Below, one piece after another: positions 5,450-48,270 of a stretch of 64,000 nucleotides of DNA. The notes beneath the pieces are model-generated. The model ran no database searches and was not told the DNA's origin. It saw only the letters and a program-made list of their open reading frames with translations. A program made the translations under genes and the position numbers. Origin of the DNA: Berberis thunbergii. Taxonomy: Eukaryota > Streptophyta > Magnoliopsida > Ranunculales > Berberidaceae. The stretch is taken from contig QNQO01005758.1 of NCBI GenBank assembly GCA_003290165.1, positions 310,001 to 374,000 of the forward strand. Reading direction: 5' to 3'. Within the stretch, counting starts at the first letter, position 1, and every line of letters begins with the position of its first letter.

Positions 5450-6984
5450 CTAGGGAGTTCTTCTCTCTTCTTCCATGTTCCTTCTTCCCTCCTCTCTTTT
5501 TCAGCCACCACACCAATCCACCCTGCCGACAATCCTCACTCGATAGAAGAGCTGGCAGTGCGATAATCCCGCCATCACCACCTCACCTCGCCACCGTCAA
5601 ACAACCACAACCGCCACCACCATCTCCTCTCCCTGTTCCATCACGCCACACAATAGCAAACCTCTTCATCCATCTCTCGTCACCTCGCCACCTTCCCTGT
5701 CCAGCAACCAAGCACCAAGCCCCGCCACCAAAGCACCACCACCACCACGAAACAGGGGCGTGACAACCCTGTTTCACGTCAAATTTTCACCTCGCCACCA
5801 AGCTTCGCCATCTCTCGCCCGTTCTCGTCCTCTCTCCCATATCTCTCTCTGCCTGTTCTTCTTCTTTAGCAACACAACCACCGCCGCCGCCCTGTTCCAC
5901 CTCGCGACATAGCACCGCCCTGTCTCTCTCCTCCATTCTCTCCCTATTCATCTTCAATATCTTTCTGTTCATCCATCTCCCGACCCTCTCTCTCTTGCAT
6001 GGAAGTTTCAGTGGAGAAGAATAACCGAAACGAAGCAGCAGCGGCAAAGCACAGGACGTGTCACGCTGGAGAAGACAACTGTGCGACTTTGGCAAGAACC
6101 AACTGTTTTCAAACAGTTGGCTATTGACACCTCGAGATTCTGTAAGAGCTACCACAGTGCATTTGCACCATTTTCTCGGGATGTGCGTTCATGCTAAGAT
6201 GGATTTTGTTGATGCTGTGACCACCGCTATCATGGAGAGCTAAACCCTTCGCCAAGGCTAAGATGAAACCAATTGGGTTTCAAGAGTTTGTTATAGTTTG
6301 ACTTTTTATTGTATTATGTGCTTAACTACAAAATACATTTAATTTCTGAGTATTAGTAAATTACTTTAACCGATTATATCGGATTTGATCTAGACTAGTC
6401 GGTAGTTACAGTTTTCTTTACTAATATTTAAAGCATTAGTTTTAATTGGTTAAGTCAGACTTGTGATTGAGTGTGCCGTAATAAGACACTCAATGCTAGG
6501 AGTTGAAACTTAATAAGTTAGACTTGTTATTAAGTGTGCCGTAATAAGACACTCAATGCTAGGAGTCTATAATTTATGCTGAAGTTAATTGTAACATTGG
6601 ATTTTAAAACTGAATTGTTCTAAACGATCACATCATCAATGCGAGCAAGGGATTCTCATCCCTATAGCTTCTCGCTTTAGAAAATAATAAGTTAGATAAA
6701 AATAACTTGAAAAACTAAATTGGTGGATTCAATGCCTTGGTTTCCTTTCTCATTTTCTTAAAAAAAATTATTTTGCTTTTTAATTTGATTTTTAGTTTAG
6801 ATATTTTGATTGTTGTAACCCCCATTTAAATTAGTTTAAGTAAACTTTGAAATTTAATTGCAATCACAGTCGTTGTGGGATCGACCTGTACTTGCCCTTG
6901 TCTACCAGTTAGACACTGTACACTTGCAGTTATTAAGACTAGGTTAAATTAACCATTTTATTTAGGTTAGTTAAATTTGCATCA
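5450..6984 (+). repeat. 5' LTR (right part) of the Athila-like element
   Basis: Matches 25343-26877 over its length with about 4% differences where compared. It ends in GCATCA, seven bases before the PBS. The LTR upstream of its CTA target site, including the TATA box seen in the other LTR, is displaced beyond CACTA-A. The first 400 bases are C-rich with CCACC runs that give long but meaningless open frames. Confidence 0.9.
6451..6566 (+). repeat. Tandem duplication with stem-forming ends inside the LTR
   Basis: Two copies of a ~53-bp segment begin 63 bp apart (6451 and 6514), each containing GTGTGCCGTAATAAGACAC and ending CTCAATGCTAGGAGT. Within the first unit ATTGAGTGT and ACACTCAAT are inverted, so it can fold into a short hairpin. 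The same pair is present in the 3' LTR at 26345-26460, so the duplication predates this insertion. Confidence 0.8.
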
Positions 6985-6990
6985 AGTTTT

Positions 6991-7008: not shown

Positions 7009-8379
7009 TTGTAATTGTGAGACCCTAAGTGGATGGACCTGAGGTGAGGGCGAGGGTGAGGGTTGGAACTCAACAGGCCAAATAGGCCTAGAGAGGTTGG
7101 ACGAGCTACAAAGGGAATCATAGTCCCACATCGCCTGAGTGGGGGAGGGGAATCACAATAGCGGTGTAATTGAAATTAAGAGTTTATTTTCACTAATTTT
7201 TAGTTTAGGTTAAAAAATAAAATAAAATAAAATTTAGGTTAAATATAGATTGCTTTTGCTTTTAGGATAGACTTGATTTTATTTTTTAGTTATTTCTTTT
7301 AAGACTTAGAAGTTTTGATACTTGTTTTTATTTATTTTTTTATTTTTGCAGGTATTAACAAGTAGGAAGCATATATTACAGGTTGCATAAAAAAAACAAA
7401 AAAACAAAACAAAACAAAACAAAAAGCACATGGTTTGAATTGTTTACAGGTTGCTATCGTGTGAACACTCTCAGAAGTCGGCGAGCCGTCAGGTGGACGA
7501 TGCTTCTGATCGACGTCAACTCGACTTCTACCCAGCGTCGCAAGTAACCCAATAGAGGTTCACGCCGGAGGTAATTTCTTCCCACCGCTTCTGCATGCGG
7601 TTTCTGAGTGGATTACTGGGTGTTTTGCTTGTTTTGTTTTTAGCTAGAATTGCATGCAAATTTGAATAGATTGAGGATATTTTTGATGCTGTAAAATTCT
7701 GTGCTCTCTCCCGCGGATAGGTTAACCACCATCCATTTTAGGGTTAGGGACCTAAGCCCTCACTATTAAATTTGTAGCAAGATAAATTAGGACAAGACGC
7801 TCATAGGACCCCTCTTTTGAAACTTGAAAGTTTAAAGTATTCAAGTGAAGGAGCATATCCAATCTTGGAATAGTTCTGAAACTGGCACTACACTTTAAGC
7901 TGAAGGTAGAAAAGGAGGTAAGAGAAATTAGATTTCAGGATATTTTTAATGCTGGGAAACTTCGTGCTCTCTCCCACGGATAGGCTAATTAAAATGGATT
8001 TCAGCCCTTGATTAGTAACAAACATAGGTAATAAAAAAGAGTGCTTGTAGGGATTACCAGACGTTACAGCCTCTACCTAGTAAATTAGTTTCTCACGAGA
8101 TTAATTTGCTTCATAGAAACCTCAACTTTTCATGGGGCTATAACTATCAGCTGCGCAGTACCCGAAAGCAATGTGAATGATTGTATTGCTAGGTACTTAT
8201 CTAGGGTCGTTTTCCATTCATCTTGTTTGCGCATCATATAGGTATTGATTAGGTTTTCCCATTTTTATTTTTTTAGAGTTAGGTCATCTTCATATAGAGG
8301 GTAGGCTTGCATAAAATAAAATAAAAAATTGACGTCTATTTAGGAGTGTTGACTTTGAACCTTTGTTATCCATCAGTGT
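7009..8379 (+). other. Leader between PBS and gag, with an internal direct duplication
   Basis: No coding capacity recognised. There are A-rich low-complexity runs near 7210-7230 and 7388-7425. A segment containing AGGATATTTTTGATGCTG and CTCTCTCCCGCGGATAGG at 7674-7725 recurs in diverged form at 7938-7985 (AGGATATTTTTAATGCTG, CTCTCTCCCACGGATAGG), about 263 bp downstream, so the leader has been duplicated locally. Long leaders are usual in Athila elements. Confidence 0.65.
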
Positions 8380-10115
8380 ATGCATACCTGGGTGTGTGAT
8401 TCTAAGAGTAGACTTGTCCGACAAGAATTCGAAGAGTTCTTTGAAGTCTCCATTACTTATTTAGGTTCATCATCCTTGTCCACTGAGATGGCTAAGGGAA
8501 AGGCCTTTAAGGATTATTTCGCCCCTCTTCCTAGTAGTGTTCCATCTTGCATTGTCTTACCTGAGACAAATGCAAATAGTTTCGAACTCAAACCATCTAT
8601 TATTCATTTCTTGCCCACTTTTTATGGTTTTGAGAAAGAGGACCCTTATCTTCATGTCAAAGAATTTCTTGACATCTGCGCTACCCTGAAGTACCAAAAC
8701 TTTTCTGATGATACGGTCCGTTTTAGGTTATTTCCCTTTTCTTTGAAAGATAATGCGAAATCTTGGTTAAACTCATTAGAGACGAGATCCATCACATCAT
8801 GGGATGCGTTGTCAAGAAAGTTCTTGACAAAATACTTCCCCATTCATAAACGAATGCCCTCCGACGAGATTTATCTAATTTTCAACAAAAAAAGGGTGAA
8901 CATTTCTATGAATGTTGAGAAAATGTTGAGAAAGGTTCAATGAGCTCATTGTCGGGTGTCCCCATCACGGATTCGAGAAGTGGCGGCTAGTTCAATAATT
9001 TCAAGACGGTTTAACCCCTCAAAACCGTCATATGATTGATGCCACTAGTAGTGGGTCATTAATGAAAATGAGTGTCAGTGAAATTTGGGAATTCTTTGAA
9101 ACGCTTTTCGAAAATTCTCAGAAATGGAATTATTCGAGAAAGGAGTCTGATAGGCATAAGGGTGGTATATATGAAGTTAGAGATACATCTGTTCAATCCC
9201 CTTCTGCCTCAAAGTTAGAGACGGATGTTATGACCATGACTCAAAAGATAGATGCACTTTTGAATTTGAGTCAACCTGTACCTCTCGCAAACGCTTCATC
9301 TGAAGTATGTACTGCATGTTCGAGTCCTGGTCATTCAATAGCTAATTGTGACTTGCAAAACGATTATCCTGCATCCTATCCTGAGCAAGTCAACTCTTTT
9401 AATGCGATGCAGCGATCTGGCAATAATCTGCAACCTAACTATTACAATTCAGGGTTCGCCAAATATCCAAGTTTCTCAAGCCCCTAACCCTGTTAGGCCC
9501 CACCATAACCAAGTTCCTCCATCCAACACATCAAGTTTAAAGGAAACGGTTAACCGATTTTTGCAGCGCTCAGAAAGTATAATTAAGCAGCATTCTAAGG
9601 ACATATCTGAGTTGAAAGCCACGACTCAACACCAATCTCAAGCCCTCAATAGACTTGAGATAGCTGTGAGTAAGATTACTCAGTCCTTTTTGGAGGAAGA
9701 GCCAGAGAGATTTCTTAGTCAATCTGTTCCAAACCCAAAGGGTCAATTCGCAGTTGGTAGTACATCTGAGTCACACCATGAAGATGTCCAATCTATTACT
9801 ACCCTTCGGAGTGGAAAACAGGTTGACATTTGGGTACAAGTGTCTAATTTGAGTGTCGTTGCATATCCGTCCAAGTCAACGCAGGTTGCATCTCCATCTG
9901 ACTAGGAGGCTGATAAAGCCTCATCTTCTAAAGATGTGCCTCTTGACTCTGACCCCACTAAGGCATCTTATTTGCCTAGGGCACCATTTCCATCACGGTT
10001 AACTCCGGCAAAGAAAGGAACAAGTGTAAATGATGTAATAGAAAATTTTAAACAAGTTCACATAAATATCCCATTACTCGATGCCATCAAGAAAGTTCCT
10101 AACTATGTCAAGTTT
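8380..10115 (+). pseudogene. Athila-type gag polyprotein, frameshifted
   Basis: Structural capsid/nucleocapsid protein of the retrotransposon. Seen in order: a retrotransposon gag core (EDPYLHVKEFLDICATLKY, VRFRLFPFSLKDNAKSWLNS, KFLTKYFP) at 8630-8870; after a frameshift near 8890 and a stop, the MIDATSSGS segment at 9032; a zinc knuckle CTACSSPGHSIANC (CX2CX4HX4C) near 9310-9355; after another frameshift near 9480, a C-terminal region with ITTLRSGKQ; then an in-frame TAG at 9903-9905 and the gag-protease linker PFPSRLTPAKK...INIPLLDAIKKVPNYVKF. The ATG at 8380 is the first in frame; ATG at 8490 (MAKGKAF) is an alternative. The frame is cut by CACTA-B at 10116 and resumes after 21318, where TTTTTGAAG restores the expected K-F-L-K. 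Confidence 0.88.
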
Positions 10116-10395
10116 CACTACACCAAAAGGCCTGTTTAGCTACGGGGAGGTGGCCACGGCTCTAAGCCGTTGGGTTGTTTGCCACGGTTTCTAACCGTGA
10201 CTACAATGGCCAACGGTCTAAAACCGTGGCTAAAAAATAAAAACCGTTGGCCTTGCCCACGGTTTTAGACCGTTGGGAATTGTAGCCACGGTTTTAGACC
10301 GTTGGCCAATATAGCCACGATTTTGGACCGTAGCTATATTTTCCAACGTTCTAAAACCGTTGCTAAAATACATCAAAACCGTTGGAAGAACTCGA
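10116..10395. repeat. Left terminus and subterminal repeats of CACTA-B
   Basis: After CACTACACCAAAAGGCC there are about eight units of the form GCCACGGTTTTAGACCGTTGG, many nearly self-complementary (GCCACGGTTT / AAACCGTGGC). The same terminal layout, down to GTTTAGCTACGGGGAGGTGGCCACGG, is found in reverse at 60730-60771, which defines a shared family with CACTA-C. Confidence 0.88.
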
Positions 10396-12048
10396 ATGGA
10401 CTTCACGCGGGCGAAAGAAATTTCGCGGTCTGGCGAAAAATTTGGCGCTCCCGCCTCCATTTTCGCTCATTTTCATTTTCATCTAATAGGTTTAGGGTTT
10501 TGTAAGAACATATCTGTTTTTGTGTTGATTTAGAGAAATTTCGTCAGTCGTCTCCTCTCCTCTCCATGGTTTGGTTTGATTTGATTGCATTTGGAAGGTC
10601 TTTCAACCATAATCTCCCTCTGGACTCAGCCTCCACCTTCTCGCACGGCAATGACACGGTGCCCTTCCTTCCCTTCTCATCATTCATCTCTCCCTCTGCT
10701 GCAATTCTCCTCCTCCCTGTAAGTTCAAGTTGTCTTCTTGAAAAACCATTTGGGGATGTGAGTGTGAGGATAAGGGTTGAGTTCGTTGTCCATTCTTTGA
10801 TCTCTTGGAACCAATCCAAGTTTATTTAAACCCTAATTCAATCCAAGTTCGTTGTCCAATTTTTTATGTTCTTTCTCTCTACCAACTTACCAAGTTCCAC
10901 GCTCTGCTCTTCTTCTTCTTCTTTGACTCTCCATTTCTTCTCCGTCTCTCTGCATCATTATAATTTATCTCACTCTCAATCGAACTCCATCATCCCTTCT
11001 ATGTTGCTGCTACAGAGCCCTTCAAACGACCCAGCAAGCACAAACTCAACTGGATCGTATCAGGTTTTTCGTTTTCCAAGTGTCTGATTTCAATTTTTTT
11101 TTGTTTTGTCAATCAATTTATGCATTTAGGCCAATGGGCATTGTTTAAATGATGGTTTTAATCGATTGATTGAAGGGTTTCAGGAAATGAGTGTAAGGCG
11201 ATTGTTGGGTTGGGTGGGTTTGAAAGAAATTTGGACGAAATTGATTTGGGGCTTTAAGTGGGGTTGATCAATTTGAGTGAAGTTTGGTTTTGTGATAGGA
11301 ATTATATGAGGTTGATTAGATTTTTAATGCACTTCCCCTCTTTTTCTTGGTGGTTTGGTTTTGTTTAATGTAATTTGTTATTGTATTTCCTAAATTCCTT
11401 TGTTGCAAATTTCGACACTTGGTAGTTTGAGATATTAATTCCATGGATTTTATATGGTATTTGAGGAGATTATTAGTACCAAGAAGATGGGGTTGAGTGA
11501 TATATAGAATATAAATTCTATTGGTGATCTCCCTATTAGTTGCTTCAAATTTTAGCAATTTTGTATAATTAATGCCACACTAACATAGATATAAGACATG
11601 TTTGAGGAAAAATAATTGTACGTGCAATGTGCAATGCTCTCGGATAGGCATTAGTACTATGAGAGTTTGATTACTAACGATCACATGAAACTAGTTGAAT
11701 TGGACTATTAGATCACTAGTAAGCTCCAAAGTTGATGCCTTTAAAAATTCATACCAGAGTTGATAAATTTTAACCACTTGCTATAGTTGATAAGAGCCGA
11801 AGCGCCCTTTGAAAGGCGATCCCCATTTGAAAGAGAGTGTGCAATAAATAAAAGAAGATGTTCCTTGAGTTTTCAAGTTATGGTATTTGTTCTTTGAGAG
11901 TATGTTTTAAATATGGTCATTTCCTATTCTGCATTATTAATTATTGTTGAATTTCTAATTTCTATCACATTTCCATTTTAGAACTCCAATGGATAAAACA
12001 TTTACGAAAGATTTGGAATTGGCGAGACATATGAAGAAGAATGAGAAT
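10396..12048 (+). other. CACTA-B 5' interior without recognisable gene
   Basis: Starts with a GC-richer stretch (TTTCGCGGTCTGGCGAAAAA, TGGCGCTCCC) followed by C/T-rich leader-like sequence. CACTA-C has a comparable GCGAAA-rich segment just inside its terminus (60470-60520), so this may be the family's own promoter region. Open frames at 10566-10829 and 10866-11087 are low in complexity (Ser/Leu/Phe-rich). A block ending TGGATCGTATCAG before GTTTTT (about 11064) could be an exon end, but I recognise no protein. 11100-12048 is AT-rich, with nothing I can assign. Confidence 0.5.
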
Positions 12049-13005
12049 AAGATCTGGAATTGGCGGCTTGCAGACTCCCGCAACTACGAGGGTTTGTTCA
12101 GCGTCACCTAAATCCTCTTTTAAATTCTCTCTCATGAATTAACCGATGTCTTATGGGATTAGCTTCTTTTTTTTTGCAGGATCAATACCGATTACTTGGA
12201 GAAAATGTTGCTAAGATCAGAACTGATCTTATGAAGGAATAGCTTGCTACATTTAAATCCCAATTGGAAGATTTTTCCCGTAAGCACAAGGTCATCTTCA
12301 TGTTCTGTCATTGTTGTTTTGGAATTTTCATTTTTCTTTGCTATTTATGATCATAATAAGTTGACCAATATGATTCCACTGTCCTAAAAGAGTTAATAGT
12401 ACTGGGACTGGGAGATCCTGAGTTGAAAAACTTGTTAGAAATTTTTGTACTTTTAAATTGATTTTTTTTTAACTTATTTAGAAGACTTTTAACCTTGATT
12501 ACTAATGAAATCTCACAAAAAAAATTTTATTTTGCTTGGTGATGTCAATTTTCTGTTGATTGCAATGAGATTTGGGGTGAATTTGCAAGATTTAACACAT
12601 GGAAATTCAAAAGGATACAAATTCGTTTTCATATAAACAAAGAACATGAAGTGAAACAATTTTCCCAATTTCTTTTGTGGTAGAAAGTGAATGAGACTGT
12701 TGGAAAACTTCAGGAGCTGTCCATGGAAAATTAAAGAGGTTTTTAATCATTGTTTTTTTCTATAACAATCGAGGATATCTAGAAAATTTGAATGTTGAAG
12801 TAGTTATGGACCTGATTTCTTATCAACCAGACTGTATATGTTAATAGGTAAGTATGATAAATTTTTATAGCCAACCAAAGCCCCTTCTACGATTTCTGAT
12901 TTTCTCGCAATACGGATATGATTCTTCTAAGATACTAATCATACTAACATGGTATCTGGCTGCTGCAGAATGACATCCGTAAAAATCCTAATTATAAATA
13001 TATGC
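12049..13005 (+). pseudogene. Captured VPS22/SNF8 (ESCRT-II subunit) fragment
   Basis: Fragments of the ESCRT-II subunit that helps sort ubiquitinated membrane proteins into multivesicular bodies. A first block near 12049-12092 reads SGIGGLQTPATTR, like the protein's N-terminus. A clear exon at 12180-12290 (after TTTTTGCAG, before GTCATC) reads DQYRLLGENVAKIRTDLMKE, stop, LATFKSQLEDFSRKHK; the stop is one TAG where Gln is expected. The next exon begins at 12969 after TGCTGCAG with NDIRKNP, then departs from the family. Order and phase match plant VPS22 exons 1-3. The stop and truncation rule out function. Identification is from remembered family sequence. Confidence 0.78.
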
Positions 13006-13216
13006 CACCATTTGCATGTTGAGTTACTTCCCTCTACAATGAAATTTTTTTTGCAAGTCCAAGTATGCTATTGCCAACAATAGTCAAGGGAGATCTTAAT
13101 GATTAAGGTCAAGCACATAGGATCTATTATTTGAACGAGTTTTTCAATGGGGTTTAAATATAATACCACAAAAATCTCATCAATTGAGTTGATATTTACA
13201 ATAAATATTTTTGCAG

Positions 13217-13717
13217 GGGCAACCTTGGGTAAAGGTATAAATAGAGCAATTGCTACATTTCTAGCTGGTGCACTTGGAGTTGGAGCTCATCACTTGGCTA
13301 GCTTGGCTGGACAACAAGGAGAACCAATACTTCTATGTTTCTTTGTTTTCCTGCTAGGTAAGAGTTAGTGTAATTAATTCGTTCTTTTCTTTCTTACTGG
13401 TTACTTAACTTTTACTTACCATTGAAACTGGTTTGATGTAACAGCTGCAGTATCGTCTTTCTCGAGATTCTTCCCAACAATCAAGGCGAGATATGACTAT
13501 GGGGTGTTGATATTTATACTGACATTCAGTTTGGTATCTGTTTCGGGTTATCGAGTTGACAAGATCATTGAGATGGCACACCAAAGGCTAACAACAATCA
13601 TTATTGGTGGTTGTACATGTGTGTTCATTTCCATATTTGTTTGCCCCGTATGGGCTGGTGAGGATCTCCAGAACCTAGTTGCACTCAATATGGAAAAGCT
13701 TGCAGAATTCTTAGAAG
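13217..13717 (+). pseudogene. Captured ALMT (aluminium-activated malate transporter family) fragment
   Basis: Two exons of an ALMT anion channel, a plant membrane protein exporting malate or other anions. Exon 1, 13217-13357 (after TTTTTGCAG, before GTAAGA), reads GATLGKGINRAIATFLAGAL then GVGAHHLA and a hydrophobic end. Exon 2, 13445-13717 (after TGTAACAG, before GTACCA), reads [20 protein letters not shown], then two membrane segments around [16 protein letters not shown] and [20 protein letters not shown], ending [11 protein letters not shown]. It covers the middle transmembrane helices and the start of the cytosolic helix; the first helices and the C-terminal domain are absent. There is no stop or frameshift in the captured exons, so of all the fragments here this one has decayed least and is the likeliest to be spliced into a readable transcript. 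Confidence 0.88.
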
Positions 13718-14034
13718 GTACCAAAAACTCCATTAATATTCATTCCCTCTTTTAATATATTTCTTTTTATCTATGAAGTTGAAGACTTACTAGGAACAAT
13801 GTGTGAAAATAGGTCACTGGTAAATAGAGCTGTATAAGCTCGTCTGTGTCTTTTCTTTGTGCATTATACTATTATATGTGTACTTCAAAGTTTACGCCAA
13901 CCTTAAATTGTTCGTACATGATAATGTTATAAACATGATCTGTAATTAATTTCCATACATGATCTGATGCCTGCATATCTTTTCATTGTTCCCTTAACAA
14001 TATAATATTCGGTCATTTGACTCTTTTGTTCATT

Positions 14035-14332
14035 AGCTTCTAGCCCTAGCAAATGGGGACCGTGTTAAGGACAAGCAGCGTAGTAGGAGTTCCTTTGTGG
14101 TGGACATGGATAAGAAGCTCGCAGCAGGAAATCTCTTATGCGAGTGGTCTTCACAACATGGAGCTATTATGAGACAGGTAAATTTCAGCTTAGTTATGTA
14201 TTTCGCATTTCAGAAGTATTTCCTTTCTTTGCATTAGTCATTCGCTACCTAAATTATACTACAATCTACCATACATATGATGCAGATGGTGGAGATTTAC
14301 ATAAAACTGGCAGAACTAGAAACAAAAGGAGA
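14035..14332 (+). pseudogene. Probable captured ATM kinase fragment (two exons)
   Basis: Exon-like block 14035-14177 (before GTAAATT) reads LALANGDRVKDKQRSRSSFV, continuing VDMDKKLAAGNLLCEWSSQH. A second block, 14287-14332 (after ATGCAG, before GTCAGT), reads MVEIYIKLAELETKGE. Joined in phase, the arrangement resembles the segment between the FAT repeats and the kinase domain of ATM, the DNA-damage checkpoint kinase: LALAN near the start and IYIKLAELE at the matching place. The resemblance is from memory and moderate, so the ATM name is tentative. That it is spliced host-type coding sequence is much firmer. No catalytic residues are included. Confidence 0.5.
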
Positions 14333-14372
14333 GGTCAGTGGTATTTCGCATTTCAGAAGTATTTCCTTTCTT
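14201..14372 (+). repeat. Direct repeat overlapping the probable ATM fragment
   Basis: TATTTCGCATTTCAGAAGTATTTCCTTTCTTT at 14200-14231 recurs at 14341-14372, so about 140 bp has been duplicated around the second exon-like block. Further downstream, CGGCTTCCAA(T/A)(A/G)GTAAGTCATTTTGGAT occurs at about 14577 and 14623, next to a (TA)n microsatellite at 14550-14572. Confidence 0.75.
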
Positions 14373-14923
14373 TTGTTCATTAGCTTCTGTAATATAATAT
14401 TTTCTCCTGTAGAATTCACAACTGGACAAAAGTAACTAGCTCCACATTATTTTCTCTCGTACTTGATCAAGTTTTTTCCCTTCAGAGACATATTTCATTG
14501 ATTCCAAGAATTCATTATTCATTTCCTAAATGAGGTCTATGCCATCTATATATATATATATATATATATATAATACGGCTTCCAATAGTAAGTCATTTTG
14601 GATTACTCATATTCAAACTATACGGCTTCCAATGGTAAGTCATTTTGGATTTGATATGTACATTAATTTTTGTAGGGATTATGACTTATGATCCATACCA
14701 GCAAACATTCTCTAAACAATTAATGTTGCGTTTTATCTGCCGTTTGATCTTTTCTTAGATTACCATTTACTCTAAAAGCTTAGGATCTGCTGAAAGAATG
14801 CAAATCTACTATATATATCAAAGTAGTGGGGGGTGGTGTGGAATAGAGTTTACTTTCAATATATATGTTTACTAAATTTTACAGCTTTTTTGTTTGAGTC
14901 TTACTTGGTTTGATTTTCAACAG

Positions 14924-15189
14924 GTCACTGGTAAAGCTCTCATGTTGGATGAGATAATCAACTATGTTCAGTCCCTACAATACCAAGTAGAGGTACGTAG
15001 TACTAAATAACATGGCACAGTATCACATAAAGACCACTAAACTTCTCCTTTTTCATTGGATGATGATCATAATTGAATCATTGTTTTTTGTTTTCTTCTC
15101 TTTAGTTCCTCTCCATGAAACTTGCTTCCATGAATCCAATATTATATGACTTTGGAGAAGATTTAGATACCCACATGATCAAAACAGAG
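14924..15189 (+). pseudogene. Captured bHLH transcription factor fragment (two exons)
   Basis: Exon 14924-14992 (after TTCAACAG, before GTACGT) reads VTGKALMLDEIINYVQSLQY then QVE: the second helix of a plant bHLH domain. Exon 15106-15189 (after TCTTTAG, before GTATAG) reads FLSMKLASMNPILYDFGEDL then DTHMIKTE. The pair matches the helix 2 and following segment of the BEE/BPE/CIB-like bHLH group (subfamily XII). The basic DNA-binding region and helix 1 are not included, so no DNA-binding domain remains. No stop codons in either block. Confidence 0.85.
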
Positions 15190-15315
15190 GTATAGAAGAA
15201 ACTACACTCCCTTTCATCTATCATTTTGTTTATCATCCACAATTAAAATCTTTTTTGTTTGCTTGGTTCTTGTCATTTTGTTTATGTTGTCTTTGTTTAT
15301 TGCAATTAAAACAAG

Positions 15316-15371
15316 GAGAAGAGGCAATCAGAATTAGCAGAAGTCTGGCTTTTGGGATTCCTTTACATCAA
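15316..15371 (+). other. Unidentified exon-like block in CACTA-B
   Basis: Between AAAACAAG and GTACTAAT there is an open block reading EKRQSELAEVWLLGFLYIK. It has the look of a captured exon like its neighbours, but I do not recognise the protein. Confidence 0.4.
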
Positions 15372-15644
15372 GGTACTAATTTCATTTCACATTGTTATAA
15401 TTGGTGCTTCTTTCTTGTTGATATTGTAGATATTACATCGAGGCTGCTCTCTTATCCTTATACAAAACGTGTTTCATTACTTGTACTCCATATAAACATT
15501 GTATGAAACCAAACTATAACATATCTCTTTTACACCCCATTTTGTTGTTGTTCTTCTTGTGTCTCTCTCTTGGGGTCTCTAAAGCTCTCTCTGACAACTG
15601 GTTTTTCTTTTTGTTAGATTTTTTTTTTTTTTTTGTTAGATATA

Positions 15645-15715
15645 ATGTATAGTGGCTATAAACCTTACTATGATCCTGATTTTGAATCATTGATAGAGAG
15701 AATACATCCACCCAG
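15645..15715 (+). pseudogene. Captured ACR (ACT-domain repeat) protein, N-terminal exon
   Basis: ATG at 15645 opens MYSGYKPYYDPDFESLIERI followed by HPP and a GT donor at 15716 (CCCAG then GTAAT). This is the characteristic N-terminus of plant ACR proteins (four ACT domains, proposed amino-acid sensors): tyrosine-rich start, DP(D/E)FES, then (I/N)ERI(H/N)PPR. Only this exon is present; the ACT domains themselves are missing. The donor leads straight towards the Dicer-like exons 170 bp downstream. Confidence 0.75.
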
Positions 15716-15887
15716 GTAATAAAAATCTCTTGTAGCCATCTTGTGCTTCTTCTTCTTCTTTGATTTTTGTAGCCATCTTGTACCCATCTCTTGTAGCCAT
15801 CGTGTACCCATGTAAAGGAATACATCCTGATTTTCCTTTAACTACAATTCTCAACAAAAGCTTGACATTTCATCCCTGATTTTGTAG

Positions 15888-16441
15888 CAAGCGGACGTCA
15901 TAACGAAATCAACTGATTTTAAAGTTCAGACATATGTCGGCCATACTAAGCATTTGAACCATCAAGAATGGGAGAAAGAGATGGAAAACTATGAGGTTCC
16001 ATTCACACTCTATGCAGCTTATCTTCTTCACAGTCTATGATTTTAAAGTGATTTAAGTTACTTTCTTTTTCACAATATAAAAAGAAAAATTTGAGAAGAA
16101 TTTCATTTACTGGACTATGCAGGTTCTTGTTATGACCCCACAAATACTTCTGCGCAATTTATTCCATTGACTTATCAAAATGGAGCTAATTGCAATTTTG
16201 ATATTTGATGAGTGCCATCATGCGCAAGCACAAAACAGTCACCCATACAGCCAGATTATGAAGGTAACTGATTAATATGTTGACGTCTCTGTTTAAATAG
16301 TTTAAGTTTCCTCGCCCTTTTTTGGAAGCTAGACAGGTCTTGTGACACTCAATTTCATTAAAACTGTACAGGCATACAAGAGAAGTGCCATGAACCGTCC
16401 CCGCATATTTGGCATGACTGCATCTCCTATTGTAGGGAAAG
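15888..16441 (+). pseudogene. Captured Dicer-like (DCL) helicase fragment (three exons)
   Basis: Three exons of the DExH helicase domain of a plant Dicer-like RNase III. Exon 15888-15995 (after TTTTGTAG) reads QADVITKSTDFKVQTYVGHT, ending KEMENYE. Exon 16123-16263 (after ACTATGCAG, before GTAACT) contains VLVMTPQILL and the motif II box IFDECHHAQ. Exon 16372-16441 (after CTGTACAG, before GTAAAA) contains motif III-like FGMTASPIVGKG. One in-frame TGA lies in exon 2 (NLFH then stop). The ATP-binding P-loop is upstream and absent, as are the PAZ and RNase III domains. DCL4 seems the closest remembered relative, but I cannot separate the DCL types with confidence. Confidence 0.85.
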
Positions 16442-17216
16442 GTAAAATAATAGTTCTTGACTCTTTTAATTCTCTTTTATGATGTCTGTTTAGTATGAAG
16501 CATTCAAAATAAGAGGCTGCCAAGTTTTAATCACAAATGATCTATAAATGACTTCTAAGCAAGTTCTATGACTAGTTACCTATTGTTCTAAGGTCTGCCT
16601 GGTATTAAAATTGGTAGGATTTCATGAAGTTTGGATGCTGCATGTTCTAAAGTCTGCATGTTCTAATGTTCATCCTATTGTTAAGCATTTCAAGTTGTTG
16701 TCTGTATAGTGTATACAATACAGATATGCTGATTTTTTTAGTATATGCTGCCTGTAATGCTTCCATTTATCCCTTCTAGTTCGAGCTATGCTGATTTTTT
16801 AAGTAGTTTTGAATGGAAATAAGTATATGCTGCCTGGTCTTTGTTAGTTTCCTTTCAAATTTTTTTTGTTTTTTTGACAAAGTAAGTTTTGTTGTCAGGA
16901 TGGTAGAAACTCCAATATTGGATACTTGTCCTTTCAAATTACCTATTGACCTTTTTTTTCACACACTGTGTCCTATGGTCAAGAAGTGTGGATGACTAGG
17001 CGTGTGGTTAGGTGGTTATTCTCTCTTGGTTATATGGAGCTACCTTAATTCTTTTAATTAGATGATGAAAAGATTGGAAACGAATCTGTAGGCAATGCTT
17101 ACAAAGAGCACATCATTGCAACAACCTTTGAATCCATAAAAATAAAATTTGATTAAGCCAAACTAAAGTGCAAGTCATCAATATACTGATTATGTTAGTG
17201 GAACTGGAATTTGCAG
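16442..17216 (+). other. CACTA-B spacer with one unidentified open block
   Basis: Mostly T-rich, intron-like. At 17063-17150 an open block reads DDEKIGNESVGNAYKEHIIA then TTFESIKIKFD before a TAA. It is unlike its AT-rich surroundings and may be another captured exon; I do not recognise it. A TATGCTGATTTTTTTAGTATATGCTGCCTG-like phrase is repeated around 16724-16835. Confidence 0.4.
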
Positions 17217-17324
17217 ATCCGGAAAAATGATAGATTAGCTGTTAGCAAGCTGGTTAACAGCTTAACGAGAGGTGCAGTTCGTTCACCACTGGCTCAGTGC
17301 CTCCTGATCCGTTATGCTAGTCAG
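17217..17324 (+). pseudogene. Captured gamma-COP (coatomer subunit gamma) exon
   Basis: A single exon after ATTTGCAG reads IRKNDRLAVSKLVNSLTRGA then VRSPLAQCLLIRYASQ, matching the N-terminal adaptin-like repeat region of the coatomer gamma subunit, part of the COPI coat on Golgi vesicles. It is open across its length and then runs into unrelated sequence (LHVFLSN...). Only about 36 residues of a protein of nearly 900 are present. Confidence 0.85.
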
Positions 17325-17654
17325 TTACACGTCTTTCTTTCAAACATTACAAAGAATGTGACATTGTCTTGTGTATCATTCCAAGTATGCTGTTTGTATG
17401 GACTACTAGCTTCTTCATTCGAGTCAAGGTTCTGTGTATAAGAGAGAGACAGAAAAAGAGGGGGGGTTGTTTGTGAAGTTGTTATCAGTCCATGATTTTA
17501 CTGATAAAATATAGTCTAGTTTGAGCCTATTGACTCACCATGTGTCAAGAAAAAACCTCAGGCAAAAAGAGGCTTTGGGTGACAGCCCATTGACCCAGTT
17601 GTTGAATATTATGAATTGTTACAGTAGCAACCTAATATCTTTTTCTATATGGAC

Positions 17655-17836
17655 CAGATTATTTCACAAATCCGTACTGTGTACTCATTTGTTGGGGAGG
17701 AAAAAGCTCTTGAAGCCTATTCCAATTCTATTGGAAAGGCCTTGAAGTTGGGAAAAAAGGAGTGGATTCGTGAAAGGAATTTGTGTCGGCATTACATATG
17801 GAGTGTTATTTTGTGTTTGGGCATTGCTAGATTGCA
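17655..17836 (+). pseudogene. Captured ABCB (P-glycoprotein type) transporter fragment
   Basis: Reads QIISQIRTVYSFVGEEKALE, then AYSNSIGKALKLGKK, which is the conserved intracellular-loop region of plant ABCB transporters. After a one-base frameshift near 17758 the next frame continues with the following membrane segment (GICVGITYGVLFCVWALL). No nucleotide-binding domain is included. The frameshift makes it non-coding as a transporter. Confidence 0.82.
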
Positions 17837-18061
17837 GTAGAGAGATAGTTAAGGCTGCAAATTTCCATTGTTTGTGGGAGTTTTTCACTCTATCTAAATT
17901 GTGATCCTCTTTTTTTTTTTCTAATGAATTCTGCTATTGTTTACTTGATAAAAGAAACCTTTAAGTTGGCAAGGTTGCGTGTACAATGTTATATGTTTTA
18001 AGATTTAGATTTGTTGAGGAATTTTAAATACAAGTCTTTAACAAGCTTTTATTTTTCTCAG

Positions 18062-18590
18062 CTTTGGAAAATAGCTATGAGGTGCAGAAAACTGATGACA
18101 CAGCAACCGAAAATGCTTCAAACACCATCGTTGAGAATGCTGAGCCCAAGGATGCCCAATGTGTAGTAGGGGACCTTTAGACAGAAAATGTGAAAGACTG
18201 GCCTGCTGAAAATCTTCAGATAGAAAATGAGCATGCAGTGTCTACAGAGAATCCTCAGGCTTCAGATGTTCAGCCTTCCTCTGAAGGGGACCTTGTACAC
18301 CCCGCTGCAGTGTACCCCAGCAAATAGATCAGTCTTCTGCTGAACAACAGCCTATTGCAGGGAACACTGAAAAAGACGATTTAACACAGCAACAACCTAA
18401 ATCTGAAAGTCAAACCATGTCTCGAAAGATGGATACGATTTGGTTTGTGCAATACAATTCAGGAGCTAAAATTCAAATTACAAGGGATTCTAAAGCTGAT
18501 TGGCATTCTTCCACCTGGCCAGTGGAACTAATAGGATCCTTGGAGAACATAAACAAGGCTGAAAAACTGATAAAGGATGTCATTGCAGAG
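18062..18590 (+). pseudogene. Captured KH-domain (FUBP-like) RNA/DNA-binding protein fragment
   Basis: Begins after TTTCTCAG with an acidic, Asn/Glu-rich segment (ENASNTIVENAEPKDAQ, ENPQASDVQPSSEGD) and ends with a KH-domain piece in which QYNSGAKIQITRDSKAD and PVELIGSLENINKAEKLIKD are clear, before GTTTGG at about 18591. This matches a plant far-upstream-element-binding-like protein. The GXXG-containing first half of the KH motif appears deleted (SRKMDTIWFVQYNSG), and there are in-frame stops at 18178 and near 18326. A following block at 18756-18844 could be a further exon but is not recognisable. Confidence 0.75.
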
Positions 18591-19094
18591 GTTTGGTGTT
18601 TATTTATTTTTACTTGTATTTTGTTTTCTTTTCCTTGTGCAAACTAGATCACACTTCAGCAAACTTTTGTATTTGTTGTTGAAGATTCTTTTTTAAGTTT
18701 GCCAGTTTTTTTTTTCTTGGAATGTAAAATACTAATGTTTGAATTTATATGACAGGAATCTCGCGGAGAACATGCACATTGAAGGCCATCAAGAAGATTG
18801 ACAAAGTTAAGAGTGGCTAGAGAGGCTGCTCACATTGGAAACAGGTTTTGTTTTTTCCCATTTGATATTTGCTTAGTCGGTATAGTTCAATTGTTTATCG
18901 TTTCTAACAAAATTTTGAAAATTAAACAATGGAACAAACCTTGGTTCAAGTTAGATGGTCTTTATTGGTACTTAATCATAGTGGTTTATATTTGAAACAT
19001 AGTTTTAAATATGTTGACCATAATGTTTGTGGAGGAACAAGTTCTAGTCATGTATTCTACACTTCTTAACATTGACATTTTCTTTCCTACCCAG

Positions 19095-19222
19095 TACTCT
19101 GTCTTTGGCTCCATGTTGACAATTAGTGCAATGATCGGTGCAATTACAAGTGGGCCAATAGCTGATTTCATAAGCCGAAAGGGGCATTTGTTGCAGGATG
19201 GCTTGCCATATACTTTGCACAG
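19095..19222 (+). pseudogene. Captured ERD6-like sugar transporter exon
   Basis: After CCTACCCAG the block reads YSVFGSMLTISAMIGAITSG then PIADFISRKG, the second and start of the third membrane helix of ERD6-like (major facilitator) monosaccharide transporters, including the conserved loop G-R/S-R-K-G. A short deletion then shifts the frame to AFVAGWLAIYFAQ, also family sequence, ending at a GT donor. The conserved R of GRKG is replaced by S (ISRKG). Too short for function. Confidence 0.82.
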
Positions 19223-19574
19223 GTTTGCTTCATCTGTACTCTGTTTATTCTCAATAATGTGTATTTCATTTCTAAAATTTATAAGCTTTTCCTCGTCAAA
19301 TATGTTCCAACATTTCCTTGTCAATGTTTCCGATGTCAAATTGTTCTTTAGGTTTATTATGTTCAATTAATAAGTTGTTGGAAACTATACTCATGCAATT
19401 TGCAAACATTTGTGTTCATAATTCTTCAAATTCTTCATTTCTGTTATTTTAGTTAGATTGTTTGGAACAAAATTTTTTATGTCTGTTCATCATTAGGCCC
19501 TTTTTTGAATGTCTGTTAATCATTAGGCCCTCTTTTCTTTTTTGTTGAACAGTTGATTGAGTAGCTTCAAATAC

Positions 19575-20487
19575 TTGACAGCCGATGCACTTATCTCAAC
19601 AGGACTGGCTGGTTTAGGATATATTTATGTGAATATTGGTAATTCTTTTCTTAACCATTCTACTACGAAATAGCTTTTCTCTTAGAACTGGGCTGATTAA
19701 TAATCTTTATGGCTGATGATTGCTGGTCCTCTTTTAAAGGGGATTCAAAGGTTTGTCTTCTTACACTAATCCACATAACTAAAATGATTTTCTTTCTAAG
19801 AATCTGATTAATTTTGTATTTCTTAGCTTAATTAGTTCCAAATTTAGTTCTTATCGAGGAATGATATTTAGCTGATTATTTACTTATGTAGTAACCTAAA
19901 GAGTGTAATTTCTGTAACATGGACATCTTATAGGAGAGCCATGTTATATTATGGTGACTACTTGTATGCAAAAGGAGGGTAGATATTAAACTTGTTGATT
20001 GAAAGTATGTGAGGATGCAAAAAGACCCATTCCTTGTTACTCTCTATATGAATGAGGCACAATTTTTATTTTATTTTGTTCACTAAAAGATACCACTTTT
20101 AGATTTCAGGTTTCAATGGAAGTTCTCCCAATTCCTCGTAATAATGTAATTCTATTTGCAGGGTGATTTAGTACCTGATCCCAAGACATTTCCCTCTGGT
20201 ATTAAAGCTTTAAGTGACTATATACATGGGAAGGGCCTCAAGCTTGGTATATATTCTGATGCTGGGTAAGATGGTTTGGCTTTTGCTTCATGGTTGAGAT
20301 AATATAGTGATACATTATCTTCTAATTCATTTTGCCATGGGTTAGCTTGTTATATTCAGCATGCACTATAATACTTTACATGATTACTGTTTTTTAACCA
20401 ACCTATGATTCCAGGGCCTTTACTTGTCAAGTTCGACCTGGATCACTTTTCTATGAAGTGGGTGATGCAGAACTTTTTGCATCTTGG
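19575..20487 (+). pseudogene. Captured alpha-galactosidase fragment (four exons)
   Basis: Pieces of a plant GH27 alpha-galactosidase, in order. 19575-19638 reads LTADALISTGLAGLGYIYVN; 19710-19751 reads DDCWSSFKGDSK; 20161-20265 (after TTTGCAG) reads [20 protein letters not shown] and [11 protein letters not shown]; 20415-20487 (after ATTCCAG, before GTAAGG) reads AFTCQVRPGSLFYEVGDAEL then FASW. These include the conserved DDCW and KLGIYSDAG segments of the barrel's first half. The nucleophile region (YLKYDNC) and the rest of the enzyme are absent, and the second block seems shortened. Introns retain GT-AG borders. Confidence 0.87.
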
Positions 20488-20518
20488 GTAAGGATCGGGT
20501 GTAGTAACGAAAAGTTTT

Positions 20519-20735
20519 GTGACTCCACTTTTCACCCTTATTGCTGAGTATGGCCAAAAATGGAAAATGACCAGTCTCCAATCTTATGCATTCATGGGTC
20601 TTGCTGCTGGTAGCATTTTGGGCAACTTATTTGGCGGTTATTTCTTACTCAAGACACAACCCAAGACTATGTTTCTTCTGTTCGCTCTTCTACTATCATT
20701 TCAGATGACTATTTCCTTGACTATCATTGTATTTG
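20519..20735 (+). pseudogene. Captured folate/biopterin transporter (FBT) fragment
   Basis: Open block reading SLQSYAFMGLAAGSILGNLF then GGYFLLKTQPKTMFLLFALLLS, two membrane helices like those of plant folate-biopterin (BT1-family) transporters. No stop occurs before 20758. The preceding 60 bases (TPLFTLIAEYGQKWKMT) do not clearly belong. Family identification rests on the remembered SLQSYAY...GGYFLLKTQ pattern, hence moderate confidence. Confidence 0.65.
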
Positions 20736-20909
20736 AGATATTATTTGATAGATTTTGACTCAATGTAATACATTTTCTTATTAATTACATTACTTTGCCT
20801 CCATTAATTACATTACTTTGCCTCCATTATTTGATAGATTTTGACTCAATGACTCAAAGTCATTTGATAGCAAAAAAAAAATTAAAAAAAAAAGTAAAAA
20901 AAAATTTTG

Positions 20910-21318
20910 CCACGGTTTTAAACCGTGGCTAACTGTTGCAACGGCTAAAAACCGTGGCTACCTTGCCACGGCTTAAAACCGTGGCCAAAGTTAGCCACAG
21001 CTTAAAACCGTTGCTACTTAATTAGACACGGTTTAAAATCGTTGCTAGTATCCATGCTTTATCACGGCTTAAAACCGTGGCTATTTTTGCCACGGCTAAA
21101 AACCGTTGCTATTCTTCTTGCAACGGTTTAAAACCGTGGCTAAATGCTGAAAATCACCACCCCTATTTAAGCATAAAACCGTTGCTACAATGTTTAGCAA
21201 CGGTTTATAGCCGTTACAAAGAATTTTGCGACGCCTCTGTAGCCCACGGCTCTTAGCCGTGGCAATGGGTTACGCCCACGGTATAGAACCGTTGCTAAAA
21301 GGGGTTTTTGGTGTAGTG
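20910..21318. repeat. Right subterminal repeats and terminus of CACTA-B
   Basis: About a dozen units of GCCACGG(C/T)TTAAAACCGTGGC or the GCAACGG...CCGTTGC variant, in both orientations, packed into 400 bases, ending in GGGGTTTTTGGTGTAGTG. Many units are near-perfect 20-21 bp palindromes. They are presumed binding sites for a transposase supplied in trans. Confidence 0.88.
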
Positions 21319-22151
21319 TTTTTGAAGGTTCTTTGCACACAAAAACGGAAGCTCCATGTGCAAAGAGAGCCTTCCTCGCAGAGTAAGTGAGCTCAATTAT
21401 TCAACACAGAACCCCGCTTAAGTATAGGGATCCTGGTTGCCCAACTATTTCTTGTATTATCGGTAATCATGTGATAGATAAGGCATTATTGGATTTAGGG
21501 GCGAGTGTTAATTTATTGCCATATTATGTTTATGAGCAATTAGGTTTCGATGGGTTAACACCGACTAGAGTAACACTGCAATTGGTAGATCGGTATGTCA
21601 GAGTCCCCCGGGGTGTTATAGAGGATGTGATTATCAAGGTTGAAAAATTTTATTACCCTATGGACTTTATAGTTCTTGATACACAACCTGTTCACAATCC
21701 CTCTAGTCACATTCTAGTCATTTTAGGTTGACCATTTTTGGCCACATCCAATGCCATTATTAACTGTAGGAATGGAATTATGAAATTTTCATTTGGCAAC
21801 ATGACCGTCGAACTCAACGTTTTTAATGTTAGTCAACAACCTCCCGAGCCCGAGGATGTTTGTGAAGTTGACATGATTGAGAGTTCGATGGAGAATTCTT
21901 TATTGTAGTCTGTATCAAATGAGCCCTTAGCAGCATGCTTGACTCACTTCGGTTTAGACTTCAATATTGATGATTCCATTAGGAAAGTGAATGCTTTGCT
22001 TGATTCAGCCCCTATTATGGATCCAGGTTACACATGGAAGCCTAAAGTGGAACTCCTTCCACTCAGTGAGTCAAAATTAAACCTTTCTGCTGATACCCAT
22101 TCCCTTTTCCGCTTGTTCATGATGACCCATTTGACATATGTCCTCTTGTGA
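21319..22151 (+). pseudogene. Athila aspartic protease segment, broken
   Basis: Continuation of the Athila gag-pol frame after CACTA-B. The first bases complete the K-F-L-K...CTHKRKL linker. Then SSIIQHRTPLKYRDPGCPTI, the retropepsin active site LDLGASVNLLP (DLGA in place of DTG/DSG, normal for this lineage), and IVLDTQPVHNPSSHILVILG. A TGA at 21729-21731 follows LVILG where Arg is expected (ILGRPFL). The frame continues to NMTVELNVFN, a TAG at 21906-21908, then the post-protease region ACLTHFGLDFNIDDSI...PGYTWKPKVELLPL typical of Athila. RT should begin soon after this, but it does not appear. Confidence 0.85.
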
Positions 22152-26877: not shown

Positions 26878-26984
26878 ATCTACTAAAATTTACATTTTTC
26901 GAGGATTTTTTCAAAAAATTTCAATATTTTTTTTCTAATTATCGTTTATTCTAATTATTTATCAATTTTTGAAACCACCCCTAA

Positions 26985-47140: not shown

Positions 47141-47589
47141 CCTCCTGTTCCTTTACTTTCTTCCTTGAATGTAGTAGAATAATTTTATTAAAAAACATGA
47201 ATTTTCTCCTCTACTTTTCTTTGTAGTCGAGGTTCATCTTGTTGACTTTGTTCGTGTTGCCTGTACCTTTTATATGTTGATCATTATTGTAGAAATGATT
47301 TGTAATCCAATTTTGATTTTTACAGCTATATCTTTGATCCTGCCTGAATTTTGTTGATTTGAATTCTCGTACGCTCTGATACATCCGTCTTAACCTCGTG
47401 TTGGTTATCTAGAAGCTTTTATGAGAAAACTGTTTTGTTCATTTGTCTTCTACTTTGTCGATCTGGCGCATCAGTTGATCTGAGGTTCTCTTGAGTTCTA
47501 TTAACTCGTTCTTTCATCTTTTGCTTCCCTAGTTTGATACTCTAATCAAAACGAAATTGCTTTTTTCGAGTTGGCTTACTTCATTGGCT

Positions 47590-48270
47590 CGACGATCCAG
47601 TTGATCCGAAGTCAATTCATTCAAGTTTTGCTTCATTGGTTAGACGTTTCAGTCGACCCAAGGTTACTTTTATTCAGTTGACTCGTTCGTCCAACTTTTA
47701 CTTTGTTGATTCAACATTTTGGTCAACCCGAAGTTGCTTTTACTTAGTTGTCTTATTTGCTCAACTCTTATTTCGTTGGTTCAACGTTCTAATCGACCTG
47801 AAGTTGTTTTTACTTAGTTGACTCATTCGACCAACTTCTACTTCATTGGTTCAACATTCTAGTCGACCCGAAGTAGTTTTTACTTAGTTCACTCGTTCAT
47901 TCAACTTTTACTTCATTGGTTCTACGTTTTAGTCGATTCAAAGTTTCTTTTACTTAGTTGACTTGTTAATCCAACTTTTACTTCATTGATTCGATGTTCT
48001 AATCAACCTAGAGTTGTTTTTACTTAGTTGACTCGTTCGTCTAACTTTTACTTCATTGGTATTACATTCTAGTTGATTGAAAGTTGTTTTTTCTTAGTTG
48101 ACTCGCTCGTCCAAATTTTACTTCACTGATTCAACGTTCTAGTCGACCCGAAGTTGTTTTTACTTAGTTGACTCGTTCGTCCAACTTTTATTTCATTGGT
48201 TCAATGTTCTAGTCGACCCGAAGTTTTTTTACTTAGTTGACTCTTTCGTCCAACTTTTATTTCGTTGGTT
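47590..48270. repeat. 70-bp tandem repeats in Tat-2
   Basis: AAGTTGTTTTTACTTAGTTG anchors recur at 47661, 47731, 47801, 47871, 47941, 48011, 48081, 48151 and 48221, an exact 70-bp spacing. Each unit includes GACTCGTTCGTCCAACTTTT, ACTTCATTGGTTCAACGTTC and TAGTCGACCCG. They occupy the place of the 177-bp array in Tat-1 but are unrelated in sequence. Confidence 0.92.

Follow-up and report, generated by a model that had tools for sequence, protein, structure and literature searches.

Structure of the element

The window (the whole 64,000-nucleotide stretch of Berberis thunbergii DNA analysed) hosts an element bounded by matched ends at 10116 and 21318. The left terminus (10116-10128) reads CACTACACCAAAA, and its exact inverse copy constitutes the right terminus (21306-21318). 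The end features are as follows.

10113-10115, target site duplication TTT, left
10116-10145, plus strand, left terminal inverted repeat, starting with CACTACACCAAAA; 25 of its 30 outer bases match the inverted right end
10154-10386, plus strand, left subterminal repeats, ACGG..CCGT near-palindromes
10390-12049, plus strand, 5' interior, occurring in the copies compared
20742-21318, plus strand, right-end region of type R1, with subterminal repeats at 20909-21290 and the terminal inverted repeat ending at 21318
21319-21321, target site duplication TTT, right

CACTA termini flanked by a TTT duplication had been proposed in an earlier, sequence-only reading, and this is borne out: TTT lies on both sides, and joining the two flanks restores, across the empty site, an open retrotransposon frame. 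The window copy is inserted in a retrotransposon. Terminal inverted repeats starting with CACTA, a 3-bp duplication, and arrays of short direct and inverted subterminal repeats are those of CACTA (En/Spm) transposons. Helitrons are rolling-circle elements lacking terminal inverted repeats and target duplications, whereas the window element has both. Pack-MULEs carry long terminal inverted repeats and a 9-bp duplication, but here the ends are of the short CACTA type, and the duplication measures 3 bp. No transposase family was detected in the six frames, nor in 95 plus-strand and 99 minus-strand ORFs of at least 30 aa, and protein comparison of the 5' interior gave no convincing match. When the literature was searched for this end sequence, none of the papers listed dealt with a transposon. 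The element contains host coding DNA without a transposase, and the cargo moves along with it. It belongs to a non-autonomous Pack-CACTA subfamily with multiple copies.

Captured gene fragments

The cargo of the window copy is listed below.

12050-12989, plus strand, VPS22 (ESCRT-II SNF8), parts of exons 1-3, one in-frame TAG
13216-13717, plus strand, ALMT, two exons and intron (Pfam 4.1e-55; PDB 1.4e-40)
13809-13824, plus strand, filler between ALMT and ATM, 13-16 bases recurring at the start of the bHLH exon (14920-14935)
13822-14345, plus strand, ATM fragment (protein search; host ATM gene)
14341-14373, plus strand, templated filler at the ATM 3' junction, a 33-bp exact repeat of 14198-14230
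14924-15189, plus strand, bHLH49/62-like, two exons
15640-15715, plus strand, ACR-like exon (name presumed)
15888-16441, plus strand, DCL4, three exons, one in-frame TGA (PDB Dicer-like 4, 7.1e-20)
17217-17389, plus strand, gamma-COP, cut off inside its intron at 17389
17652-17824, plus strand, ABCB19-like, with a frameshift
18062-18590, plus strand, KH-domain protein (far-upstream-element-binding-like)
19095-19222, plus strand, ERD6-like sugar transporter, weak identification (Pfam Sugar_tr E 0.011, under Pfam's cut-off)
19578-20487, plus strand, alpha-galactosidase, three to four exons
20537-20725, plus strand, folate-biopterin transporter (FBT8/9-like)

The sequence-only reading had named 12 donors. 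Ten have tool support, namely VPS22, ALMT, ATM, bHLH, DCL4, gamma-COP, ABCB, KH/FUBP, alpha-galactosidase and the folate-biopterin transporter. The ERD6-like piece, for which a PDB search gave no match, is weakly identified, and the exon which we take to be ACR matched no Pfam family. Three further lines were abandoned. An integrase ORF, considered as a guide to the host, reached 51% identity in its best match. A Corchorus fusion protein had suggested that the outermost fragments, biopterin transporter and VPS22, were former neighbours, but its sequence, as read, is that of another transporter paralogue, in reversed order. Dating by conserved-residue changes, which left out bHLH (no conserved columns), found 8 of 124 residues changed, too few to order the captures.

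ATM is the one named donor whose source gene has been located in the host genome. The protein search with the ATM fragment returned 27 matches, 22 of which carry the PI3/PI4-kinase domain PF00454; three of the other five are named ATM, one merely kinase, and one has a pectinesterase-inhibitor domain. The fragment found no support in PDB or Pfam, and a longer piece had no Pfam match either. The host ATM gene resides at G000:C6595, away from the element. Alignment to a donor locus had been proposed as a check on capture, and the ATM gene is 96.8% identical to a sister copy of the element, copy A, over 1,076 bp of introns and exons. Relative to the donor, the piece in copy A has filler both internally and at its 3' border. 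The edges of the captured piece fall within introns, and the host locus has more ATM exons beyond them. Since introns have been kept and the donor lies elsewhere in the genome, ATM was captured at the DNA level. Together with the tool-supported, unrelated donors, this upholds capture of multiple genes by a CACTA element.

Related copies and internal deletions

Nine more insertions, at different sites, bear all or part of the cargo. The cargo of the window copy is rich, as had been noticed, but not singular, because it recurs at many places. Copies are complete, and flanked by 3-bp duplications: W (the window copy) TTT, A TGA, B AGA, D TAA, E CAA, F ATA, G GTA, H GCA, I AGA and J GGG. The flanks of these ten sites differ, and nine distinct triplets are represented. 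A further element, K, is flanked by TAC. The search for other copies, suggested earlier, has thus yielded nine insertions and K, from which both the order of deletions and a fusion can be read.

Retained introns resemble genomic DNA, and one could imagine that a segmental duplication, or simply a row of host genes, lies by chance between unrelated CACTA ends. This is extremely improbable: the unit, or part of it, is found at ten sites with differing flanks and 3-bp duplications, and the genes are represented by parts only; at the ATM locus, exons continue past the captured piece, whose edges are intronic.

The window copy lacks two segments that other copies keep. A segment of ~565 bp with two upstream ATM exons is deleted at 13936/13937 in the window copy, B and E, is kept in A, D, F, G and J, and partly in I. 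The second segment is missing at the following point.

18692-18693, deletion point, where F and G keep ~870 bp and K retains most of it

In F and G it includes a prohibitin exon and an exon presumably derived from a transporter-like gene. The filler between ALMT and ATM is missing in J and I. The order of deletions fits a tree of the left 2.7 kb, in which branch support is mixed (0.55 to 1.0). Stepwise growth from H to I, to J and to the long form was considered and rejected: VPS22 and ATM are broken earlier in H and I than in J, hence H and I arose by deletion and are not earlier stages of growth.

Fusion of two loaded elements

J hosts the left donors, runs on from the gamma-COP intron into the next exon, which matches Adaptin_N, and terminates with a different right end. 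Compared with the long forms, H, I and J show 87-91% identity in their right ends and 97-98.5% in their left parts. K is a complete element of 10,391 bp. Over 126 bp, the left ends of K and of the window element share 78.6% identity; the left cargo of K, derived from other donors, has no match to the window. The match of K to the window element begins at 17390, before ABCB, and reaches the right end, interrupted by internal gaps; identity lies at 93-98%, with blocks of 1,306 bp at 97.9% and 565 bp at 98.2%, and 93.1% in the final 919 bp. The single fully read K copy is without the ERD6-like piece, the first alpha-galactosidase exon and other stretches.

17389-17390, fusion point, with J-type sequence on its left and K-type sequence on its right

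The region upstream of the ABCB piece was compared at 23 further places, drawn from a list of 40 from which 7 were left out: at 14 of them the match to the window does not start before 17390, and 9 continue as the long type. All 14 K-like places have, upstream of 17390, at least 24 bases common with K and missing in the long form. The same right half adjoins four or more left contexts other than the J type. As J and K keep native sequence where the long form does not, the long form is a hybrid of J and K, from which the window copy derives by deletion. No microhomology was seen at the J/K junction, and the joining mechanism is therefore not fixed by the sequence.

The reverse could be imagined, with the long form as ancestor, from which J and K each derived by replacement of one half. 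The types coexist, and the left parts of J and of the long forms are similarly close. Yet J holds contiguous gamma-COP gene sequence past the break of the long form, and a derived replacement would not restore the sequence of a donor gene; the upstream bases shared by the K-like places argue in the same direction. This reverse order is very unlikely.

Termini belonging to different elements had been indicated as fatal to the capture model. By descent, this is half true, the left end being of J type and the right end of K type. Yet the two ends have travelled together, each insertion having its own target duplication, so that the capture model stands, and a fusion is added to it.

The history that we propose, and hold to be quite probable as a whole, is one of fusion, movement as a unit, nested deletions, repair-mediated capture and tolerance of sense cargo. 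A J-type element, made of the left end and VPS22, ALMT, ATM, bHLH, ACR-like, DCL4 and gamma-COP fragments, was fused, at a point inside the intron of gamma-COP, with the right half of a K-type element carrying ABCB, KH, prohibitin, transporter-like, alpha-galactosidase and folate-biopterin transporter pieces and the right end R1. Relatives of both parents, the junction and the swapped right end show this event, in which the inner right end of the J-type and the inner left end of the K-type element were lost. The hybrid was then carried as a whole to other places by cut-and-paste transposition, as shown by sites with their own duplications, plausibly with a transposase supplied by another element. 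Nested internal losses among the copies followed; from the window copy, the prohibitin exon and the transporter exon are gone, as is a portion of ATM. The fragments were plausibly taken up as genomic DNA, through error-prone break repair and template switching, as the ATM donor and the junction filler suggest.

Cargo orientation and coding capacity

All detected fragments are in sense orientation relative to the left end. Scans run equally on both strands, covering ORFs of at least 30 aa in two composites rather than a family-wide sample, found 11 donor families on the plus strand and none plausible on the minus strand; at E 0.001 the figures are 9 and 0. In the window element, 95 plus-strand ORFs matched 6 donor families (two of them, KH at 0.0027 and ABC at 0.021, pass the lax threshold alone, where unrelated families also occur), and 99 minus-strand ORFs none plausible. 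In the left cargo of K, 5 donor families were matched by 47 plus-strand ORFs, none plausible by 54 minus-strand ORFs. The three minus-strand frames of the window element gave no match in Pfam and PDB at E 1. The interior A-T skew, -0.123, is not exceptional, as 10.5-kb segments from other parts of the window span -0.151 to 0.170, and the strand asymmetry of splice signals is slight (TTGCAG 10:2, p 0.039; GGTAA 13:5, p 0.096). Composition lends weak support to the polarity of the cargo.

Most likely, cargo made of spliceable exons, rather than of sequence antisense to host genes, was tolerated better. Alternatively, polarity may have been made by capture itself, through R-loops at transcribed genes or insertions in one direction, and not by later selection. 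The equal polarity of two composites with different cargo is in line with such an origin, but we know of no step in the formation of CACTA hybrids that reads the direction of the captured gene, and we regard it as the less probable cause, though one with some weight. That both composites have their cargo in sense orientation alone suggests a rule, which a family-wide survey can check. It is possible, at nearly even chances, that elements are assembled modularly in several left/right combinations, and that only sense cargo with usable splice sites persists. If so, exon shuffling would be combinatorial and strand-filtered, and would involve tens of copies, perhaps about a hundred.

Whether the composite is a selected chimeric gene or RNA, of benefit to the host or to the element, has to be weighed. 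Most splice dinucleotides at exon borders are intact in the 8 copies compared, raw pN/pS is 0.54, and non-synonymous changes are fewer than expected after correction for the mutation spectrum (69 vs 91.4). Yet divergence among copies is 0.0144 in exons and non-exons alike, stops (7 vs 6.7 under neutrality) and synonymous changes (31 vs 29.2) are near expectation, and the joined exons of the window copy have 35 to 54 stops in every frame. A selected product is unlikely. Since exons diverge as much as non-exons, no coding function is indicated, and mild constraint may be present.

Comparison with known systems

How unlinked gene pieces come together in one DNA transposon is partly undiscovered, according to the extract of a 2026 review (PMC13317346). 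Here, a single genome holds relatives of both parents, the hybrid, the junction, one donor with its breakpoints and nested deletion derivatives, which makes the order of events readable and testable.

Soybean Tgm-Express1, as described in the excerpt of PMC1947982, carries five gene fragments in 5.7 kb, is inserted in a flower-colour gene, and gives rise to transcripts including cargo exons. The two systems share the CACTA type, unrelated gene fragments, retained introns and exons with usable splice sites. In contrast, the window copy sits in a retrotransposon, belongs to an amplified family, and is known here from DNA alone. In the excerpt of PMC3288121, maize helA helitrons host 0-12 gene fragments each, and stepwise acquisition was inferred from related copies. 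They resemble the Berberis family in fragment numbers and in the way history was inferred, and differ in the helitron features mentioned above. The number of donors, deemed remarkable at first, is large, though not without precedent. In a comparison of Pack-TYPE groups in maize, the largest number of loci was contained in Pack-CACTAs (extract of PMC8903248). The Tpn1 family of morning glory similarly combines conserved CACTA ends with captured host sequence as the interior, but the fusion of two loaded elements is not described in the excerpt of PMC5105172.

The closest parallel is the tandem-insertion model of Arabidopsis Pack-CACTAs (Catoni et al. 2019, as presented in extracts of PMC8903248 and PMC13317346), in which parents adjacent at one locus, in the same direction, generate a hybrid using the outer ends of the two neighbours, the inner ends being deleted. 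The long form has outer ends from two elements, inner ends lost, and the DNAs of both joined. CACTA ends, host DNA inside and the lack of a transposase are likewise in common. Yet in Berberis both parents were already loaded with several donors, relatives of both have been found, and the product carries about 12-14 donors.

The window element and its copies

The CACTA termini and the TTT duplication claimed by the sequence-only reading are borne out. CACTACACCAAAA starts at window position 10116 and its inverse copy ends at 21318, subterminal near-palindromic repeats are present, TTT flanks the element on either side, and an uninterrupted reading frame results when the flanks are joined. The upstream ORF (8359-8943) matches Retrotrans_gag (E 1.5e-9), and the host of the insertion is a gag-bearing retrotransposon with long terminal repeats at 5452-6985 and 25346-26878 (90.6% identical). 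No transposase family was found in the element, either in six frames or in ORF scans of both strands. The window holds one more CACTA end belonging to this group, on the minus strand at 60520-60771: 122 bases are 89% complementary to the left end, the match being 76% over 254 bases, and no partnering right end was seen within the window. Additional features of the window are:

29132-29905, minus strand: reverse transcriptase ORF of another retroelement (Pfam RVT_1, 1e-25)
38823-39761, plus strand: integrase ORF of another retroelement (Pfam rve, 5.1e-10)
47546-48315: tandem array, 70-base period

Further copies sharing the cargo run have been found in the host assembly (2.24 Gb, 11,732 contigs). 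The left end has 40 scored copies at 94-100% identity, from 3,360 first-look candidates. Among the places read, the first 16 of 39 listed other than the window, the composite lineage counts ten insertions with different flanks: the window copy W and copies A, B and D to J. The count merges contigs with identical flanks, which we take to be two haplotypes, and C7335, a copy cut by the contig end with the flank of E.

Fusion of two loaded elements

The long form (W, A, B and D to G) is a hybrid, fused at 17389/17390 within a gamma-COP intron, of a left parent represented by J and a right parent represented by K. J (9,499 bp, duplication GGG) runs through the intron into the next gamma-COP exon (Adaptin_N, E 5.6e-12), beyond which it has a different right-end region, partly common to H and I. 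Identity to the long forms falls from 97-98.5% in the left parts of H, I and J to 87-91% at their right ends. In these seven long-form copies gamma-COP breaks at AAGTATG and is followed by CTGCTTGTATGG, with single-base differences. K, complete on contig C631 (10,391 bp, duplication TAC), has a left end 78.6% identical to that of the window copy over 126 bp and a left cargo without match to the window. From 17390 onward K has the right half of the window copy (97.9% over 1,306 bp, 98.2% over 565 bp), down to a tail 93.1% identical over the last 919 bp, including R1, the right-end type of the window copy. Window 18694-19782, with the ERD6-like piece and the first exon of alpha-galactosidase, has no counterpart in K. 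At the break J and K have no bases in common.

Of 128 candidate places for the ABCB piece, 40 were scored, all at >=96%. Among 23 further places read upstream of this piece, 9 go on as the long type, and in 14 the match to the window begins only at 17390. At least 24 bases directly upstream of 17390, absent in the long form, are common to all 14 K-like places, and in 9 of them, K included, K-type sequence continues as far as read. Since different left sequence precedes the right half elsewhere, the same right half would adjoin at least four left contexts, J type not counted: three places (L049, L051, L058) have only ~74 bases of K-type sequence, followed by other sequence common to all three, while L056 and L037, after ~375 and 24 bases, respectively, enter sequence matching neither the K left part nor other places. 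The upstream stretches read were short (~0.65 kb per place, 1.2 kb for L037), so some of the apparent partners may be insertions into the element. A 77-base stretch of K matches the inner right-end region of J at 98.7%; we read it as the scar of an earlier fusion.

Derivatives of the long form are ordered by deletions. F is the longest (12,485 bp). About 870 bp are kept in F and G and missing from A, B, D, E and W; this segment, most of which K keeps as well, includes a prohibitin exon (PDB E 1.6e-8) and a second exon, presumably of an amino-acid transporter, which has no Pfam match. About 565 bp of ATM are kept in A, D, F, G and J, and partly in I, and are missing from W, B and E. E lacks a further 330 bp, and G carries a separate large deletion. 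A tree of the left 2.7 kb, in which H, I and J cluster (support 0.93), agrees with the deletion order.

Donors and capture

Most donors named from sequence have been recovered by searches. ALMT, alpha-galactosidase, DCL4, gamma-COP and ABCB19 emerged from six-frame searches independent of the earlier list. VPS22, a folate-biopterin transporter, a far-upstream-element-binding (KH) protein and a bHLH factor are among the best 120 of 4,386 matches of a stitched query (5.77 billion proteins). A second stitched query pointed to ATM: of 27 matches (E up to 10), 22 carry a PI3/PI4-kinase domain and 3 more are named ATM. The ERD6-like identification is weak, and the ACR fragment found no confirmation with any tool. 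The element also contains further exon-like blocks besides the named ones. AG precedes 17 of the 21 exon blocks of the window copy and GT follows 17 of 21, a description rather than a test, the blocks having been picked partly by these signals.

The search for host donor loci placed the ATM gene on C6595, with C189 as the paired contig. Its identity to copy A is 96.8% across 1,076 bp, introns and exons, so the ATM piece was captured from genomic DNA. The captured exon occurs in 66 of 86 listed matches, the two contigs of the gene not counted (haplotype pairs unmerged; of the 623 candidates, 81 were scored). The fragment stops within an intron, and there the element runs on with 33 bases that exactly repeat a stretch of the element lying 143 bases further upstream. 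Within the fragment ~330 donor bases are swapped for a short filler which, by eye, resembles nearby sequence. Between ALMT and ATM the long form has 13-16 bases of a bHLH exon start, missing in J and I and with one change in D. Templated fillers of this kind are a typical mark of break repair in which the template is switched.

Orientation and evolution of the cargo

ORFs of at least 30 aa in window 10390-20905 were compared with Pfam (E 0.05). The plus strand (95 ORFs) matches 17 families, 6 of which we count as donors (ALMT, Melibiase_2, BT1, ResIII, corresponding to DCL4, KH_1 and ABC_membrane), reading the others as cross-matches or chance. The minus strand (99 ORFs) matches 2 families (E 0.034 and 0.043), and its three frames have no PDB match at E 1. 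The left cargo of K (L061 1400-6801, the last 1.2 kb left out), unrelated to that of the window, is a second multi-donor collection with the same orientation: 47 plus-strand ORFs match 11 families, 5 counted as donors (TRIP12-type TPR [TPR_TRIP12_N], Rho_GDI, PWI, sugar transporter [Sugar_tr] and a ribonucleotide reductase domain), and 54 minus-strand ORFs match 3 (best 0.0051), none plausible as a plant donor. Pooled, donors are 11:0 plus versus minus (two-sided sign test, p 0.001), and 9:0 at E <=0.001 (0.004). T is more frequent than A in 19 of the 21 500-bp windows within the element and in 55 of 105 beyond it (Fisher p 0.0012), which points the same way. The agreement is weak: the mean A-T skew of the interior (-0.123) is one that 10.5-kb windows elsewhere also reach (-0.151 to 0.170).

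Among the eight copies compared, exons diverge as much as the non-exon part (0.0144 each), and raw pN/pS is 0.54. Against expectations from the non-exon mutation spectrum (computed without ABCB, ERD6 or parts of VPS22 and KH), 31 synonymous changes were observed versus 29.2 expected, 7 stops versus 6.7, and 69 non-synonymous changes versus 91.4. We read the cargo as evolving plausibly close to neutrality, with room for mild constraint. Outside the exons the eight copies show, relative to their majority, a strong excess of C to T and G to A changes, greatest at CpG (0.024 and 0.032 per site), as expected for methylated, silenced DNA.

Comparison with known systems

CACTA elements are already known to capture genes, such cargo is known to be spliced, and hybrids are known to form from two neighbouring elements (PMC1947982, PMC8903248, PMC13317346, PMC4290129, PMC2528002, PMC5105172, PMC2773423, PMC8978399, PMC3288121, PMC6431247). 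The present case adds a composite whose junction and derivatives are at hand together with a donor gene and relatives of the two loaded parents. It also adds two composites in which all the cargo detected faces one way.
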